DNA from: Methanobacteriota archaeon
GTDB taxonomy: Archaea > Thermoplasmatota > Poseidoniia > Poseidoniales > Thalassarchaeaceae
Length of the DNA: 32,998 nucleotides
Assembly (NCBI GenBank): GCA_002702985.1
Contig: PADI01000061.1
Coordinates: 9,374 to 42,371 of the forward strand
Direction of reading: 5' to 3'
The notes under the pieces were generated by a model that was given only the letters and a program-made list of their open reading frames with translations, was not told the DNA's origin and did not search any database. Shown in pieces: positions 20,082-32,998 of this stretch; the stretch's first letter is position 1, and every line of letters starts with the position of its first letter. A program made the translations under genes and the position numbers.

Positions 20082-23000
20082 ATGAATAGCGCAGGCTATG
20101 GAATACCTCGCACCCGTCGTCGGGCAATATCGATGGTATTTCTCATGCTTTTGTACAGTTTGTCTGCCCTTGCCTTTTCCCCTGTAGCCACTGCTCATGC
20201 GTCTAATGTTGCAGAATGGCCAATGTCTGGTTCAAATGACACTGGATGGGTATTGATTGAATCAACAGGAGCCGATCCATCTACTCAGACGATGGCTACT
20301 GGTGATATGTTTCATAATTTCGCACCTGGAGCTGAAATCTCTAATCTTACCTTTGAAATTCAGGTTAATGGATCTGATGGAGTATGGGTTACAGAACCTC
20401 AATTGACAATAATGGATACACAGACATCAATATTTGATTGGAGAACATACGGAGATTTTGGACGTGCTCTTGACTTTTTGAACGGTGATCCTCATTCTAG
20501 TCGCTTGAATCCAACTACAGATACCGGAGCATCGTACATTTTGCCCGCTGGTGCAAATATCACCGATCTTGTGATTGAAGCTCTACGTCCAGCAGATCCG
20601 TTGGTATCTTTTGAGAAAATTGATTTTGAAATAATTGATTGGGACACTCATCCCGCTGATCACCGTCTTTACGTTGCAACCTCAAATCAAGTTCTAACAG
20701 TTGATGCAAATAACGATCCTTGGGTTGTGGATATTTTTGATGGCATAGAGCCAACCGCACTTGAGGTAGATGCTACCAATGGCCGACTTCTTGTAGCAAC
20801 CTCGGATGATATCATTCATTCATTTTCGGCAGAAGATACAACTTATTTGGGTCAATTACCTCCACATGGTTTAGATCCAGCTAAAGTTCTCGAGGTTGAT
20901 TCATCAGGAATCCTCCATATTGCAACAGATTGTCATCTCTACATTGAAACACCATCAGGATGGCAAGATGTTCCCCTTTCAACATCTTCAGGCTCTACTG
21001 TTCAAGGACCATGTGATGGTTCACAATTAGAAGAAGTAGTAATTCCTACAGATATTCATTTTATTGGGGCTGAGGTCTATGTCGGAACGCAAGATCATGG
21101 AATTACTGTTTGGGACGGAACATCATATACTCATTGGGATACTCAAAATGCATTGACAAGCGATTCCATTGTTGATTTCGGACAAAGTGGTAATACACTT
21201 TTCATCGCCACTGCCGATGCTGGAATTATGCGTCGAGATGTTAGTACAAATTCATGGCTTGCATCATGGTCCAGCCAAAATTGGCTTTCAGGCGACGACG
21301 TTCAATCAATGGCAGTGACAGATAATTGGATTCATATTCTTGCGAATAATGTGTTACATGTTTACAATGCATCATCTGTAGTGTTTACTAGTACTATTTC
21401 TGCAACAAGTTTGGGGATCTCAGATCCATCAAATCTGATTCCTTGGATGGCTGGTGGATTGAGGGGGCCTGTAAACGAGTCAATTCTTTTGATTGGGTCT
21501 TCCGGGGCAGCTTCCATGATTGAAGCAACCGATGTCCCTACTTCTTTCTCTTCTGAAGTCTTCGCAAACTCACCTAGTTCTGAAGAAATGTATAGCATTA
21601 CTCGTTTAGGAGACGTATACTGGATAGGAGGACAAGGTTGGATAGACCGATTTGATAGTTCAGTAAATCGTTGGATTCAGCCAATTTTTACTGATGAGAT
21701 GAGTTTTGCAATAACTACTGATGGTACAGATGTTTATGTTGGAACCGAAGACTCTGGAATGATGGCTTTTGATGTAAATGGGACACTTTTACGAAGCATA
21801 GATGAGACAACCACACCTTCCATAGCATTTGATGGAATTACAGACATGTCCTACGATCAATATACTGATTCAATGGTTATTGCACATGGACAAAGAGGAG
21901 TAACTGTATGGAATATATCTTCAGACACAACAACTGAATTTAACACACAATCTGGAGGTTCTACAGAATTAGAAGCGAATGATGTTAATGATGTTGCAAC
22001 TAGAGCTGGTATTGCTTACCTAAGTTCTGAAGAAGATGGTGTTTTACGAATTGACTTGACGTCTAACACCGTACTTTCTCCTTGGCAATCTCTCGGTGCT
22101 GATGCACTGGACTTTGCACCTATAGCAAGCGATGGTTCAACAGTCTGGCTTGGGTTATCCGGCTTCGGTGTTTTGGTTTTTGATAGAGTAACAGGCGAAG
22201 TTCTCGATCGATGGACCTCTTCCGGAGGCAATAATCCTGGACAAGGTTCTGCTATGCAATCTGATTATGTGATTAGTTTAGAATACGATCCTTATGGAGG
22301 AGTATTGGTCGGTACAGCATTTGGTTTAGAACGTTTTACAAATGGTCAAGGTCAATCTGTTTCGCAAACTGGTAGATTTGATCCTCGCGTATTCTTTGAT
22401 ACCGACTCGGATTCGAATAGTATTTGGGCAGCTACTGATAGAGGATTATGTCGTTATACTTGGCAATTTCAACGTGATGATTGTTGGGATGATGGCGACG
22501 ATATTCCAGATGATGCCCGTTCTGTGAGGATTATTTCACCAACAAGAGTCTTGGTTGGGACTGAAAATGGTGCTGCAGTTTGGGATGTTACAAATGAAGA
22601 AGTAATTGAGGTCTGGGAAGCAGGTGAACAGACCAATAATGCAAAAGTTGTGGTTCACAACGATGTTGCATATGTGGGCTTCGATGGAGCAGGAATTCAA
22701 CGCTATGACCTTGTTAATAGTGAATGGTTGACACCTTGGGACCAAGCCTCCAATGCATTAGATAGCGACGGGGTTACATCTCTCGCCCTTGTTTCGAACA
22801 GTCATATTCTTTGGGCGGGGGGAGACTTTGGTCTCGCAGAATTTGATCTCATCAATGGTACTGTTCTTCGTAACTGGGATAAAGGGACCAATTCCGGTGG
22901 CCTTTCCTTATCTATCTACGATCCTATGCACATTACCATCCACAATAACATCCTACATTATGCTCAACAGCAGAATTATCAACAATCTCGAGATTTAATT

Positions 23001-26000
23001 TTCAGAGTCGATTTAACCAATAATACCAGTCTTTCACGATTAGATGTTGGGGATCGTATTGGAACTACTGGAATTACGAATAGTCTTGGCATGGTCGGAG
23101 ACGAACTTTGGGTAGGAGTAACTCCAAGTCAATGGTGGACTGGTGTTGGTGCTGTTGTTAGATGGAACGTATCTAATGGGTCATGGGCAGACACATTGGA
23201 ATCTACTGGAGAAATTGAAAGAGTGAATGCACAATATCTTGGCGACTGTTTCCCATTGGATCCTGCAGATTGTGAATTGTGGGTTGCATATGGAGAAAAT
23301 TATCTTCGAAGATTCAATGCAAATAACATGACCTTGCTTGGTTCATGGGATGATGTTGAAGGAAGAATTAGAGGAATGGTTGAATGGGATGGAGACTATC
23401 TTTTTGCATCTTTGAATGGTATTCTTCGTTTCGATCCTACAAACAATTCTTGGCTCACAAGTTGGACTCCAAGTAATGGTGGAATGCCATCTTCAGGAGA
23501 TGAGGATGTGTATTCAATGAAGGTCATTGGTGACGATCTTTGGGTTGGAACTTATGCACAGAATGGATGGCAGACAAATTCAGATGTTCATACTCTAAAT
23601 GGCACCACAGGACAGTGGTCAAGCACTGCGGCAGGATCAGGAAATCTTCCTTCCGGCTATCCCGCAGATTTCGCAGTTTGTGCTGATATTGTACACGTAG
23701 CAATGGGATATCTTGGATGGTGGGCTCCTGGTGGAATCGGTCGTTATGATACAACATCTTCAACCTGGATTTCTAATTTCCGTGCTCAAAGCGGAGAAAT
23801 TTCCAATGACGATGTCCGCTCTTTAGCATGTGATGATGCCAACGAAATCCTCTATTCAGCTTATGATACAGATGGCATAGGAGTTGGCAGATATCTGTAT
23901 GGTGGCCAAGATTTGAAACTATCAGATATCACTGCCCAAGATGGAATTTCTGAAGAAGCAGTATTCCCGGGTGGACTTTTGTACCATAATAACAAGTTGA
24001 TGATTTCTCATTTAGCAAATAATAGAGGAGGATTTTCTTTAATTGGAGTTGTTGGAGTAAATCTGGGGACAGGTTCTCTGGTGGATCCAGGCCTAGAAAC
24101 CGGGAGTATTGTAGTGAAACCTACAACTTCAGGTACTGATGCATATGCAATTGGTCGAAATGGAGGAACATCAGGCAATAGTCGTGTTGATTTGTTAGAT
24201 AGTACAGGTTTCACCCCCGGTGGAATCGATACCTTCACTGCATTAAGTAGTGGACGAGTTTTAGAAATTGTATCCTCAGGAAACAAGGTTTGGGCACTAG
24301 CTGGTGAAGATGTAACCTCTGGTTATGGCAATTCTATTCTTGAAGGAACATTGGTTAGTGGCGAAGTCCGTTGGGACCGTTCTTTTTCATTGGGTGCTGA
24401 AACAGGAAATGAATTACTAGTTGATGGGAATCGACTTTGGGTAACTAATGCAGGCTCTGGATTAACTCTCATAGATCTTTCAACAGGTAGCGTAATTCCT
24501 GTTGGTATTGGTTTTCATTGGATGCATGATGGGCTGGCTCAATGGAATGGAGATTTAGTCATTGGTTTGATGGGAACTCAATCTACTGCCACCGGTGTAC
24601 AAGTTTACGATACAACCAACTATTCATTTGTTGATGGAAAGTTACTTGCTGCTCTCCCTAGCAATTTTGTCTACGATTTCATTGAACATGATGGAAGAAT
24701 TTGGGTAGCAACCCTCGCTGGTTTAGGTATCTGGAATATAACAACACAAGATTGGGAAGATCCATTTACACTTCTAGATGGATTACCTAATCCAGTAGTC
24801 GTTCGACTTGAATCTTCTAATGGTAATTTATTATTAGGAACGAAGGGTGGTTTAGTTGAACTAAATACAACTAACATGTCTATTGTTAGAACATTAACTG
24901 CTCAGAGTGGGTTAATGGGATCATCCATTTCTGATTTCACAATAGTCCCCCCAACAACTGTAGTTAATGCTCTTGGAGTATCTACTTCCTTCCCTGAGAC
25001 AGTATTAGTCGGGCATGATGGTCAAGGAATCACTCGACCAGGGTATGCAGAAGTCCCTGTAGGCACTATGATTCCAACTGTTACTAGAGCAATTGATATG
25101 ATTCCAGATAATGATGTAATTAGTCTAACTGCAGATAGCTGGGGAGTTCACATAGCCACTGCTACTGCACCCACAGTTCATTGGAACGCATCTTCAGGAT
25201 CCATGGAAGATGGCCCCAATCCATTCACTATGGCAGGATATCCACCAACATCAATGGTTAGTAACGGTCTTGATCTAATTTCACTGACTAATATTGGCAT
25301 AACATATCTTGCTGCTAATGGAGATCATGGTGTCGACGATCAGATTCAGGTAACAAATCAATATGGTGCTTACATTGATTCATCTGGATTAGCAACTGTG
25401 GGCTTGGACGGCCTTCATTTGTACAGTCCGATTTCTCATATTGAAGAAGACAGATTCCGGAGTCGAAGAGCTTCACCGCTGAATGTTCTTATTGGCGGAA
25501 ATTCGATTAATATCACAAATCAAACATCTCCTGGTCGAAATATTATTCTTGCAACACCTGATTCACCAATTCCTCTTTCTACAATTGGTGCAGCAGGGCC
25601 AAATGGTCTGCAACTTGTTCAGAATGTAATCACTTCTGTTAGCCCAATTCAAGGCGCAGCAACATGGATGTCAACAACAAGTTTGAATTATACAGGAATA
25701 TGGGATCTTGCTTCAATTAATTCAGGCTTAGAAAATAATCTTCAAGATGCGATTAGAAATTCTGCTATGACTCCAGATGGTAGAAATGTCCACTTCCAAC
25801 TTCAAAGCCCTACAAATGGATCTATGTGGGTTAGGATGACATATGATTGGGAAAGAACTGAGCAGCCTACTGAGATTTTGAATTTCTATGACAGGCCTAA
25901 TGATGGAGGCGGAGTACTAGTCGCAGAATGGTCTCCATCTACAGACCACGGTTGGACTGCATATCGAGTTTACATATGGGAGACTTCAGAGTATCCAAAT

Positions 26001-28589
26001 GGACTTTCTTCAACAGATTTGTCAGGTACTAATTCGCAAGTAACTTATGACGCTAGAATAGCTGTATGGGGAACGATTGCTGCTGAATTTACCAGTTCTA
26101 TGGGCCAACCATTGGAAGATGGTAAGGAATATGGCATCAGTATAGTCACTGAATATTCAGGAGCACAATTAGGAGACCCTTCCAATTTTGGAACATTCGC
26201 GATTCCTATTGATGATGTCCCAGATGCACCTGCTTGGGCGAATGCAACTATGAATCCAGATCAAGATGGAGAAATGATTCTGGAATGGGCAGCATGTACA
26301 GAATTAGATCCTGCATTCATGCATGTTTGGAGATCTCCTGCCCCAATTACAAATGTACTTGGATTACCTGAATTCCGGGCGATAGCAGTCCCCCATTCTG
26401 AAGCCAATACGACTTCAATTAACATTCCAGTTAATCGTATGACTTGGATGGGGTTGGTTTGTACTGATGAAGCAGGTCAATATGATGCTGCAAATGCTAC
26501 AATCATCGGACCAGTTGTATGGACAAGCGAGGTAGATGACGGAATACCCCCAGCTCCAATTGAAGATCTTGATGCATTCGATACTCCAGATGATGAAGGT
26601 GGAAGAATCACTCTAGAATGGACACCCAATGAAGAGGATGATTGCGCATATTACGCTGTTTATGGTAAAGTAGCAGATTCTGATACTGTTCCAGATAATC
26701 TCGAAGGTTGGGACATTATCGAATATGTTCCTTCTTGTAATGTCGGTAATGGGCCCCCGGGTAGGCCAGGTAATCAACCAGGGCCACCAAGTGATGGAAT
26801 GGTACGAGTAACAGTTAGTGACATTGTAGGCCGCCCAATTCAAGATGGTATTGTACATTGGTTTGCAGTTGTAGCAGTAGATTTCTGGGAAAATTCAGAT
26901 ACTGAAAATGTTACAATTGTATCTGCATCGTCTATAGCAAATATTGGACCAGATCCTCCAGATAGAATCCAAAATGTAGAGGCTTGGGACACTCCAGATG
27001 ATGATGGAACAAGTATCGATGTTAGTTGGACACCTGGATTTGAACGTGATTTAGATCATTACACAGTTTGGGTTTCAGAACACCCAGTATCAGCCGTAGG
27101 GCCTAAGTGGAATGTTTGCGAGTCCGATCCTGATTCTTGTGGATTAGTTTTAGTTGAACAAAGAAGATGGAATGAAGAACGAATTGAGGTCACCATTGAT
27201 ACGGCTTTACTTGGAGGTAGTTCAGTCAATGGAGCAACACCATCATCGATCTCTCCTGGAATGACACTGTACGTGTCTGTTTCAGCTCACGATACATCTG
27301 GAAATGCCTTCTTAACTCAGTTAGAGACTGTAAATGTCGTTCCAATCGATAACCGTGGAGACATTACACCACCTAGTCGCTTGGCAGCACCTACGCTTTC
27401 TGATCGTCCAGATGATGTTGGAGATGGTTTGAACGTAAATTTCGAACTCAGTTTAGCAAGTGACGTTGAAGAATATCTAATCTTTGCAGACAGAGTCCCA
27501 TTCACTGACGCATCTTCAATGCAACCCGCTGCAGTAATTTCAAGATCTCCAGATTTCCCTGTGGAGGTAGAATTCTTTTCCTCTATGGAAGGTGATGATA
27601 GCGAACGATTACCATTGAGCCCAGGAGTATTGACTTGGGTAGCAGTCGTTCCTGTTGATTCCTCAGGAAATGCATTCTTTACCGATCTAGCAACATCTAC
27701 TCGCTCTCCGATAGACAATTCACTTCTTGATCCTGGTCTCCATCTTCCTGAGATCACGGGAATAAGTCTCCAATGGACCGATGATGGGAATCAAATTTTA
27801 GTCGAATGGAATTTAATTGAAGACGATCCAAATGTTAGAACATATTGGATTTATACTTCATTGGAACCATTTGAAGATACAAGAGAAGCAACTCTTGTTG
27901 AATCATATATTGTAGAAAATTCTTGGACATTTACACCGATATGTGGTATAGATTCGAACGAATCTAATATTTCAATTTGTAATGATGTCCCTCATTACAT
28001 TGCCGTAGTTGCACATGATGATGAGGTTCATCGAACAGGAGTCACACCTCAACCTTTAGCACCATGGGATCCAATAACAGCATCTAATCCAGGAGATACG
28101 GAAGATGCGGCTTGGTGGGCTGATTTCCTTAATCCTCAAACACTGATCATTCTATTACTGATGATACTGATTGTGGTGGCATTAGTTGCATTAGTAGTTG
28201 GTCGTCGAAGGGATCCTGCTGATGACTGGGCGCACCTTGCTCAAGGAACATATGGAATTCCTCAACAAGCTGCTTGGGATGATTCGCCTTCAGACGTAGA
28301 ACTTCCTCCTGGATTGCCTGAACCAACATCTGCAGTAGTCCAACAAGTAACTCCACAACAAGTGGCTCCAGTCGATGAATACAGTTATTCAAGGCAGAGT
28401 GCTAAAGATCTGGTTCAAGATTACTCTCTTCCATCTGAGGATTTACTAATCCAAGAGGCTCGCCATCACGATGAAAACAATGACAGATATCTCGATGCTA
28501 TTGAATTGCAGAGTGCTGCTGAAGCGCTTCGTTCAGGCGAACCAAAGTCTGATGATCTTGATATGTCATTCCTTGATGACTTACTTTGA
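20082..28589 (+). CDS. giant surface protein: propeller repeats, FN3-like domains, TM anchor, EF-hand tail
   Basis: A 2835-residue exported protein of unknown function. A signal peptide (basic PRTRRRA, then a hydrophobic core ending near ATAHA, about residue 40) is followed by a very long region (about 190-1790) of propeller-type repeats with recurring strands such as VYVGTEDSGMMAFDV, LFIATADAGIMRRDV and IWVATLAGLGIWNI, resembling two-component-regulator or WD/PQQ-type propellers. From about 1930 to 2650 there are FN3-like domains whose A-B strands repeat the phrase DTPDDDG...WTP (starts near 1933, 2164, 2300 and 2439). One TM helix (about 2687-2708) with a following RRR places the tail in the cytoplasm. 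The tail is Pro/Gln-rich and contains a canonical EF-hand loop DENNDRYLDAIE (2797-2808). Many NxS/T sites suggest glycosylation. An adhesin, polymer-binding or sensor role is inferred only. Confidence 0.85.
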   Translation: MNSAGYGIPRTRRRAISMVFLMLLYSLSALAFSPVATAHASNVAEWPMSGSNDTGWVLIESTGADPSTQTMATGDMFHNFAPGAEISNLTFEIQVNGSDGVWVTEPQLTIMDTQTSIFDWRTYGDFGRALDFLNGDPHSSRLNPTTDTGASYILPAGANITDLVIEALRPADPLVSFEKIDFEIIDWDTHPADHRLYVATSNQVLTVDANNDPWVVDIFDGIEPTALEVDATNGRLLVATSDDIIHSFSAEDTTYLGQLPPHGLDPAKVLEVDSSGILHIATDCHLYIETPSGWQDVPLSTSSGSTVQGPCDGSQLEEVVIPTDIHFIGAEVYVGTQDHGITVWDGTSYTHWDTQNALTSDSIVDFGQSGNTLFIATADAGIMRRDVSTNSWLASWSSQNWLSGDDVQSMAVTDNWIHILANNVLHVYNASSVVFTSTISATSLGISDPSNLIPWMAGGLRGPVNESILLIGSSGAASMIEATDVPTSFSSEVFANSPSSEEMYSITRLGDVYWIGGQGWIDRFDSSVNRWIQPIFTDEMSFAITTDGTDVYVGTEDSGMMAFDVNGTLLRSIDETTTPSIAFDGITDMSYDQYTDSMVIAHGQRGVTVWNISSDTTTEFNTQSGGSTELEANDVNDVATRAGIAYLSSEEDGVLRIDLTSNTVLSPWQSLGADALDFAPIASDGSTVWLGLSGFGVLVFDRVTGEVLDRWTSSGGNNPGQGSAMQSDYVISLEYDPYGGVLVGTAFGLERFTNGQGQSVSQTGRFDPRVFFDTDSDSNSIWAATDRGLCRYTWQFQRDDCWDDGDDIPDDARSVRIISPTRVLVGTENGAAVWDVTNEEVIEVWEAGEQTNNAKVVVHNDVAYVGFDGAGIQRYDLVNSEWLTPWDQASNALDSDGVTSLALVSNSHILWAGGDFGLAEFDLINGTVLRNWDKGTNSGGLSLSIYDPMHITIHNNILHYAQQQNYQQSRDLIFRVDLTNNTSLSRLDVGDRIGTTGITNSLGMVGDELWVGVTPSQWWTGVGAVVRWNVSNGSWADTLESTGEIERVNAQYLGDCFPLDPADCELWVAYGENYLRRFNANNMTLLGSWDDVEGRIRGMVEWDGDYLFASLNGILRFDPTNNSWLTSWTPSNGGMPSSGDEDVYSMKVIGDDLWVGTYAQNGWQTNSDVHTLNGTTGQWSSTAAGSGNLPSGYPADFAVCADIVHVAMGYLGWWAPGGIGRYDTTSSTWISNFRAQSGEISNDDVRSLACDDANEILYSAYDTDGIGVGRYLYGGQDLKLSDITAQDGISEEAVFPGGLLYHNNKLMISHLANNRGGFSLIGVVGVNLGTGSLVDPGLETGSIVVKPTTSGTDAYAIGRNGGTSGNSRVDLLDSTGFTPGGIDTFTALSSGRVLEIVSSGNKVWALAGEDVTSGYGNSILEGTLVSGEVRWDRSFSLGAETGNELLVDGNRLWVTNAGSGLTLIDLSTGSVIPVGIGFHWMHDGLAQWNGDLVIGLMGTQSTATGVQVYDTTNYSFVDGKLLAALPSNFVYDFIEHDGRIWVATLAGLGIWNITTQDWEDPFTLLDGLPNPVVVRLESSNGNLLLGTKGGLVELNTTNMSIVRTLTAQSGLMGSSISDFTIVPPTTVVNALGVSTSFPETVLVGHDGQGITRPGYAEVPVGTMIPTVTRAIDMIPDNDVISLTADSWGVHIATATAPTVHWNASSGSMEDGPNPFTMAGYPPTSMVSNGLDLISLTNIGITYLAANGDHGVDDQIQVTNQYGAYIDSSGLATVGLDGLHLYSPISHIEEDRFRSRRASPLNVLIGGNSINITNQTSPGRNIILATPDSPIPLSTIGAAGPNGLQLVQNVITSVSPIQGAATWMSTTSLNYTGIWDLASINSGLENNLQDAIRNSAMTPDGRNVHFQLQSPTNGSMWVRMTYDWERTEQPTEILNFYDRPNDGGGVLVAEWSPSTDHGWTAYRVYIWETSEYPNGLSSTDLSGTNSQVTYDARIAVWGTIAAEFTSSMGQPLEDGKEYGISIVTEYSGAQLGDPSNFGTFAIPIDDVPDAPAWANATMNPDQDGEMILEWAACTELDPAFMHVWRSPAPITNVLGLPEFRAIAVPHSEANTTSINIPVNRMTWMGLVCTDEAGQYDAANATIIGPVVWTSEVDDGIPPAPIEDLDAFDTPDDEGGRITLEWTPNEEDDCAYYAVYGKVADSDTVPDNLEGWDIIEYVPSCNVGNGPPGRPGNQPGPPSDGMVRVTVSDIVGRPIQDGIVHWFAVVAVDFWENSDTENVTIVSASSIANIGPDPPDRIQNVEAWDTPDDDGTSIDVSWTPGFERDLDHYTVWVSEHPVSAVGPKWNVCESDPDSCGLVLVEQRRWNEERIEVTIDTALLGGSSVNGATPSSISPGMTLYVSVSAHDTSGNAFLTQLETVNVVPIDNRGDITPPSRLAAPTLSDRPDDVGDGLNVNFELSLASDVEEYLIFADRVPFTDASSMQPAAVISRSPDFPVEVEFFSSMEGDDSERLPLSPGVLTWVAVVPVDSSGNAFFTDLATSTRSPIDNSLLDPGLHLPEITGISLQWTDDGNQILVEWNLIEDDPNVRTYWIYTSLEPFEDTREATLVESYIVENSWTFTPICGIDSNESNISICNDVPHYIAVVAHDDEVHRTGVTPQPLAPWDPITASNPGDTEDAAWWADFLNPQTLIILLLMILIVVALVALVVGRRRDPADDWAHLAQGTYGIPQQAAWDDSPSDVELPPGLPEPTSAVVQQVTPQQVAPVDEYSYSRQSAKDLVQDYSLPSEDLLIQEARHHDENNDRYLDAIELQSAAEALRSGEPKSDDLDMSFLDDLL

Positions 28590-32399: not shown

Positions 32400-32998
32400 A
32401 TGCAAAATATGAACAAAAAATTGAGTATGCTGATTGCACTGTTCATGGTGTTAATGGCTGCATCTGTAGGAGTATCTGCAGATGGTACTGACCCACTCGA
32501 CGGCTCCGATGGAGGCGCTGATTGGGACGGTGACGGTCTAACTAACGCTGAAGAACAGCAGCAAGGAACCGACATGACCAGAGCCGACACAGATGGCGAC
32601 GGACTACCAGATGGATGGGAGGTCAATCATGGCCTGAACCCTAATTCTGGTGGTGACGCCAATGCGGACCCTGACGGAGACGGACTGACGAACGCCCAAG
32701 AATATGCACGAGGAACTAATCCTAACAGTGCAGATACTGACGGCGACGGCAAGCCTGACTCTACTGACGCGTTCCCGAACGACCCTAACGACGGAGAATC
32801 TTCCGATCAGGATGGAGATGGCATCCCAGATGCTTACGATCCAGATTACCAAGATTCCGAGACAGGTAGTGGAAACGGCGGAACAAACGGCGGTGGAGAA
32901 TCCAACGATCAAGGTCAAGGCGAACAAGGTCAAGGCCAAGGTCAAGGCCAAGGTCAAGGCCAAGGTCAAGGCCAAGGTCAAGGCCAAGGTCAAGGCCA
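32400..32998 (+). CDS. secreted thrombospondin type 3-like calcium-binding repeat protein with Gly-Gln tract (3' end outside window)
   Basis: From the ATG at 32400 the frame stays open to the window edge (199 codons). A signal peptide (QNMNKKLSMLIALFMVLMAA) ends near VSA, about residue 27. Then come calcium-binding-type repeats DWDGDGLTNAEE, DTDGDGLPDGWE, DPDGDGLTNAQE, DTDGDGKPD and DQDGDGIPDAYD, with NPNSADTD-like spacers, as in thrombospondin type 3 repeats. After a Gly/Asn/Ser linker a QGQG tract runs off the end. The coding DNA is visibly GC-richer than its neighbours (about 58% in 32461-32520 by hand count). Role is probably structural or adhesive at the cell surface; a C-terminal anchor may follow outside the window. 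Confidence 0.85.
   Translation, partial: MQNMNKKLSMLIALFMVLMAASVGVSADGTDPLDGSDGGADWDGDGLTNAEEQQQGTDMTRADTDGDGLPDGWEVNHGLNPNSGGDANADPDGDGLTNAQEYARGTNPNSADTDGDGKPDSTDAFPNDPNDGESSDQDGDGIPDAYDPDYQDSETGSGNGGTNGGGESNDQGQGEQGQGQGQGQGQGQGQGQGQGQGQG
32925..32998 (+). repeat. perfect 12-bp tandem repeat coding for (Gln-Gly)n
   Basis: CAAGGTCAAGGC is repeated without change from 32925 to the window end, about six copies, continuing beyond it. Alternating GGT and GGC codons make the unit 12 bp and not 6 bp. Imperfect copies begin at about 32908. Such a repeat is prone to slippage and to assembly breaks. Confidence 0.9.

Follow-up and report, generated by a model that had tools for sequence, protein, structure and literature searches.

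A giant surface protein conserved across Poseidoniales and a portable EF-hand-type module in its predicted cytoplasmic tail in one genus

The uncultured Marine Group II archaea (Poseidoniales) are abundant in the surface ocean. The closest described counterparts of the giant protein analysed here are the periplasmic sensors of Bacteroides HTCS systems (BT4663, BT3049 and BT4673; PDB 4a2l, 3v9f and 3ott), which share with it homologous Reg_prop blades followed by beta-sandwich modules and a transmembrane helix. The HTCS sensors differ in having two propellers, one Y_Y_Y domain and a kinase or regulator after the membrane helix, whereas the giant protein is archaeal, has a predicted five or so propellers and several FN3-like modules, and carries neither of these outputs. 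Receptors of the ROS1/Sevenless kind also place propellers and FN3 modules outside the cell ahead of a single transmembrane helix, and they were matched by Foldseek with a low-confidence model; however, the giant protein has no kinase, and the likeness is one of layout alone. For the tail of the protein, the relevant comparison is with calmodulin, calbindin and secretagogin, which have the same loop ligands (D, D/N, N/D and E) and flanking helices as the module described below. In contrast to these canonical EF-hand proteins, the Poseidoniales module is a portable unit with a single complete EF-hand and an extra preceding helix, mostly lacks Gly at loop position 6, and has a conserved Y-L at positions 7-8 and an ELxxAA exit helix.

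Among studies of the order, Meheust et al. 2022 (PMC9258230) reported that the family-specific modules of both Poseidoniales families include calcium-binding domains and suggested a signalling role, and Rinke et al. (PMC6461757) described adhesion via archaella, thrombospondin-type proteins and flotillin. The accessible text of the former gives no account of a 52-residue domain, of its architectures or of receptor tails or a synthase carrying it, and we found no description of the giant surface protein or of the module in the accessible portions of the literature on Poseidoniales, these two papers included. In this report, we describe both; the order-specific portable module is a more interesting finding than the EF-hand tail of the giant protein from which the analysis started.

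Architecture and conservation of the giant surface protein

The window, that is, the whole 32,998-nucleotide stretch of DNA analysed, contains an open reading frame at 20082-28589 (+ strand) that encodes 2835 amino acids in a single frame. Its coordinates, and the layout that a sequence-only reading had given it (a surface protein joining propellers, FN3-like modules, a transmembrane helix and an EF-hand tail), were confirmed, and its features are as follows.

20082..20198, + strand: signal peptide region, residues 1-39, with a hydrophobic segment at 14-39
20199..20636, + strand: N-terminal domain, residues 40-185, with low column entropy at 51-200
20649..25331, + strand: predicted beta-propeller region, residues about 190-1750, from Reg_prop, a blade HMM and matches to HTCS structures in the PDB
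25854..28091, + strand: FN3-like stalk, residues about 1925-2670, about six modules, from a DxPxDxG...W pattern and a sub-threshold fn3 match
28140..28199, + strand: transmembrane helix, residues 2687-2706, hydropathy 3.7, followed by RRR at 2708-2710
28200..28586, + strand: cytoplasmic tail, residues 2707-2835, from topology prediction
28383..28538, + strand: EF-hand module, residues 2768-2819, specific within the giant protein to the genus of the window, from tail alignment and recurrence elsewhere
28470..28505, + strand: EF-hand loop DENNDRYLDAIE, residues 2797-2808, with conserved ligand positions
28560..28586, + strand: order-wide C-terminal peptide DMSFLDDLL, from tail alignments and a pattern search

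A signal peptide, a single transmembrane helix and positive charges behind it are all present, as expected of a single-pass surface protein. Hydropathy gives only one strong membrane segment in the 2835 residues (about 2687-2706), and in all 50 homologues compared the flank after this helix is more positively charged than the flank before it, the mean number of Lys and Arg in the 20 flanking residues rising from 0.38 to 3.38. In the protein of the window, the ectodomain contains 31 N-glycosylation sequons and 16 Cys, and the tail (2707-2835) contains none of either. Because of this charge bias and the lack of sequons and Cys in the tail, we predict a type-I topology with the tail in the cytosol, as had been proposed. 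A Pfam search of the 129-residue tail returned no domain, including no histidine kinase and no DNA-binding regulator, and no kinase, phosphatase or other output domain was found anywhere in the giant protein. The layout of a large ectodomain, one C-terminal transmembrane helix and a short tail rich in Pro and Gln or in acidic residues is also common in this organism: a crude filter covering about 77% of its genome counted it in 51 open reading frames.

The propellers, which had been likened to those of two-component regulators, are well supported as such. Pfam Reg_prop scored 25.6 bits against a cut-off of 20.4, and a profile of 16 homologues matched the HTCS sensor structures 4a2l (E 1.6e-35), 3v9f and 3ott, indicating blades of the HTCS type. 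An HMM built from the protein family itself located 19 blades (i-E <= 0.01) within residues 323-1611 and weaker ones from residue 193; the span of approximately 1,560 residues has room for approximately 35 blades and would therefore correspond to about five tandem propellers. The structure predictions, which had been proposed as a check, were of low confidence: the AlphaFold model of residues 40-1180 had a pLDDT of 48.5, so that the high rank of HTCS propellers in a Foldseek search with it is weak support, and the model of 1641-2835, made with five close sequences, was discarded (pLDDT 30.9). Because both models are poor, the fold and the number of blades rest on sequence. The FN3 domains of the sequence-only reading fared less well and are best called plausible FN3-like modules. 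A repeated DxPxDxG...W pattern was seen in the alignment of the stalk, but the Pfam fn3 match was below threshold (14.5 bits against 25, E 0.043), and a profile search against solved FN3 chains gave weak matches (best E 0.0076). The N-terminal domain (residues 40-185) is strongly conserved across homologues by column entropy and matched no known family in a Pfam search.

The giant protein had matches in 190 of 194 Poseidoniales genomes and none in the listed genomes of f3, a sister lineage in the same class. The order of its neighbours is kept in both families of the order (maeB, often pyk, the giant gene, pabC, pabAB and a small zinc-ribbon gene); these neighbours are metabolic, with pyruvate and folate-type genes, and give no hint of function. 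With this near-universal presence and conserved neighbourhood, the giant protein is part of the conserved core of Poseidoniales surface proteins and has been inherited vertically. Its ectodomain is conserved fairly evenly along its length, and the tail evolves fast except for a juxtamembrane W..TWG-like segment and its last residues, xDxSFLDDLL. A second full-length copy is present in at least one g12 genome, namely G002 of family f2, where both copies (C1 340094-348244 and 1806168-1814072) end in SFLDDLL. Separately, a gene for a secreted protein begins within positions 32400-32996 of the window, and its TSP3-like DxDGDG repeats give way to a long Gln-Gly repeat where the window ends; this TSP3-like gene adjoins the giant-protein locus in the genus of the window and in two other f1 genomes (L051 and L054).

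The C-terminal peptide and the EF-hand of the tail

By comparison of tails, the element conserved across the order is the C-terminal peptide, and the EF-hand of the giant protein is confined to the genus of the window. The peptide xDxSFLDDLL is near-invariant at the C terminus in both families amid an otherwise variable tail; 43 of 50 homologues have its strict form, and most of those remaining have a looser variant. A DNA pattern for the peptide found 86 sites in 116 genomes, and the reversed control found 5. Most of the 86 sites lie at the giant-protein gene, generally with a single site in a genome; in the genome of the window, the strict pattern matched only this gene and no other protein. 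A docking peptide carried by a disordered tail would be conserved in this way, and we infer such a role. A partner-binding motif like that of FtsZ was ruled out, the FtsZ-family proteins of these genomes ending in GFQRFD, STTFVR or IEFVN. When a profile of the whole tail was searched against whole genomes, the stronger matches were the giant-protein family and its paralogue; other surface-protein tails were reached only at E about 1e-3 or worse, probably through transmembrane and basic residues, and were set aside.

The EF-hand loop DENNDRYLDAIE lies at residues 2797-2808, where it had been described as perfect. By eye it fits PROSITE PS00018, but it has Arg at position 6, where Gly is usual, and the copy of the module in the window scores 14-15 bits, under every Pfam EF-hand cut-off (best relative 20.0 against 25). 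Within the giant protein, the EF-hand was found in the copies from the genus of the window (L001-L008 and L031-L034), and a tail search of this genus recovered it in 8 of 10 genomes, the remaining two being incomplete assemblies. In the tail comparison, it was absent from the homologues of all other genera examined, whose tails are Pro/Gln-rich in family f2 and mostly acidic in family f1, and the alignment places the loop and its flanks as an insertion directly before the C-terminal peptide. The idea that an external sensor or adhesin carries an internal calcium-binding tail is thus supported for this one genus and refuted as a property of the protein family. The module cannot be essential to the core function of the protein, since no orthologue from the other genera examined has it. 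Within the genus it is nevertheless constrained. Between its two most distant clades (L001-L006), dN is 0.30 for the module, 0.27 for the ectodomain and 0.70 for the adjacent Pro/Gln stretch, with dN alone compared because synonymous sites are near saturation; the module is therefore under constraint similar to that of the ectodomain, and the Pro/Gln stretch is looser.

A portable module across Poseidoniales and its carriers

The tail search in the genus of the window also matched three unrelated proteins. The common unit is approximately 52 residues long and consists of a helix YSxxVLxxVM, a turn GIxDRxAF, the EF-hand loop and an exit helix ELxxAA, the helices being deduced from sequence. A profile of this module was positive in 36 of 60 Poseidoniales genomes; in this sample it occurred in all 29 genomes of family f2, and within f1 only in genera g1, g5 and g7. 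In a phylum-wide sample of 145 genomes, 26 were positive, all of them Poseidoniales, with no match outside the order at E<=1e-5. Among the 60 distinct copies compared, Asp occupies loop position 1 in 58, positions 3 (Asp/Asn), 5 (Asn/Asp) and 12 (Glu) hold in all 60, position 9 is Lys in 23, and Ala26 and Ala46 of the module are invariant; the acidic or amide residues at 1, 3 and 5 and the Glu at 12 are those that an EF-hand uses as ligands. The profile also matches calbindin, secretagogin and calmodulin (best E 1.5e-7). Each module has one complete loop, and its first half has a helix without loop ligands, so that a module contains no EF-hand pair, although two modules lie close together in L202 and L183. 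Taken together, these comparisons define an order-specific family, a portable EF-hand-type unit that, within the genomes searched, is restricted to Poseidoniales. A tree built from the modules, whose 52 residues are too few for it to be reliable, suggests more than one gain by surface-protein tails.

The carriers are diverse. Three copies were found in the genome of the window: one in the giant-protein tail, one where the tail of a second surface protein (L196) ends and one in a 2849-residue KS-AT-ACP-KR-DH multienzyme of the polyketide or PUFA-synthase type (L197:1033-9579, on G000:C39), where the module occupies residues 501-552, between the ketoacyl-synthase (KS) and acyltransferase (AT) domains. 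Elsewhere, it was found in TPR proteins (L168, L205 and L183), in proteins that combine DUF11 with zinc ribbons (L204 and L213), in coiled-coil-like proteins (L184 and L212) and in further surface-protein tails of g5 and g7 (L172 and L200-L203). It also accompanies canonical EF-hand pairs in two double zinc-ribbon proteins, one with two transmembrane segments (L210:2212-4467) and one soluble (L214:2292-3005), which look like archaeal calmodulin-like sensor proteins.

Possible roles of the tail and of calcium

We favour, with a probability of roughly 55%, a reading in which the giant protein is a conserved receptor or adhesin, with a tail that docks onto a partner in the cytosol and to which the genus of the window has added a portable calcium-binding-type module. 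The propellers and FN3-like modules would stand outside the cell, probably binding an extracellular ligand, a particle or a neighbouring surface, and the flexible cytosolic tail would probably dock its partner through the terminal xDxSFLDDLL. The tail module, with its exit helix and one complete EF-hand, most likely binds Ca2+ and alters what the tail associates with, in a putative signalling role. EF-hands usually function as pairs. Since the module has a single complete EF-hand, preceded by an extra helix and lacking a first loop, its pairing partner may be a copy in another protein, in trans. Na_Ca_ex exchangers are encoded in all 13 genomes examined, which makes a controlled cytosolic Ca2+ level possible. 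Its occurrence in nearly every genome of the order and its conserved docking-type peptide make the giant protein a natural candidate for the role of core receptor or anchor at the cell surface.

The main competitor, possible but clearly the weaker of the two, is that the protein serves as a structural adhesin or as part of the envelope, with a tail that does no more than anchor it on the cytosolic side by the C-terminal peptide and a module that is structural or protein-binding and no longer senses calcium. The tail is indeed short and free of catalytic domains, other genera lack the module and many surface proteins of the organism share the overall layout; however, the Ca2+ ligand residues hardly vary among the 60 modules, and a purely structural domain would have no need to keep them. 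Calcium-binding repeats are also common outside cells, in many marine surface proteins among others, and the TSP3-like protein lies at 32400 in the window, so the tail could in principle be extracellular and the module one more calcium-stabilised element. We consider this very improbable, since it conflicts with the positive-inside charge of all 50 homologues and with a tail devoid of sequons and Cys. Moreover, the synthase, TPR and zinc-ribbon carriers have no signal-peptide-like segment, which independently supports an intracellular location of the module and of the giant-protein tail. That the loop is a chance match within an Asp-rich tail might be argued from the shortness of the pattern, which alone stays under the Pfam cut-offs, and hardly deserves credence, because the whole 52-residue module, and not the loop alone, recurs in unrelated proteins (E down to about 1e-23) with invariant Ala, Asp/Asn and Glu positions.

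A bolder extension of the receptor or adhesin reading, which we regard as a rather unlikely one, is a Ca2+-response network of Poseidoniales, in which this one-and-a-half EF-hand module would be a trans-pairing tag uniting receptors, synthase, TPR scaffolds and zinc-ribbon EF-hand sensors upon a rise in Ca2+. The distribution of the module hints at an internal calcium-response system not previously described. A lineage-specific, portable calcium-binding-type module that receptor tails share with enzymes inside the cell would count as evidence of intracellular calcium signalling in archaea.

Small tail modules of other kinds recur in single-transmembrane surface proteins of the same genome (for example, L125, L139, L118, L080 and L090), among them an LPxGWTxEQWxxYG motif, a WW-like DGYEW..YYR..W unit, SAP-like segments and zinc ribbons, and the surface proteins of this organism seem to have a repertoire of cytosolic tail modules.
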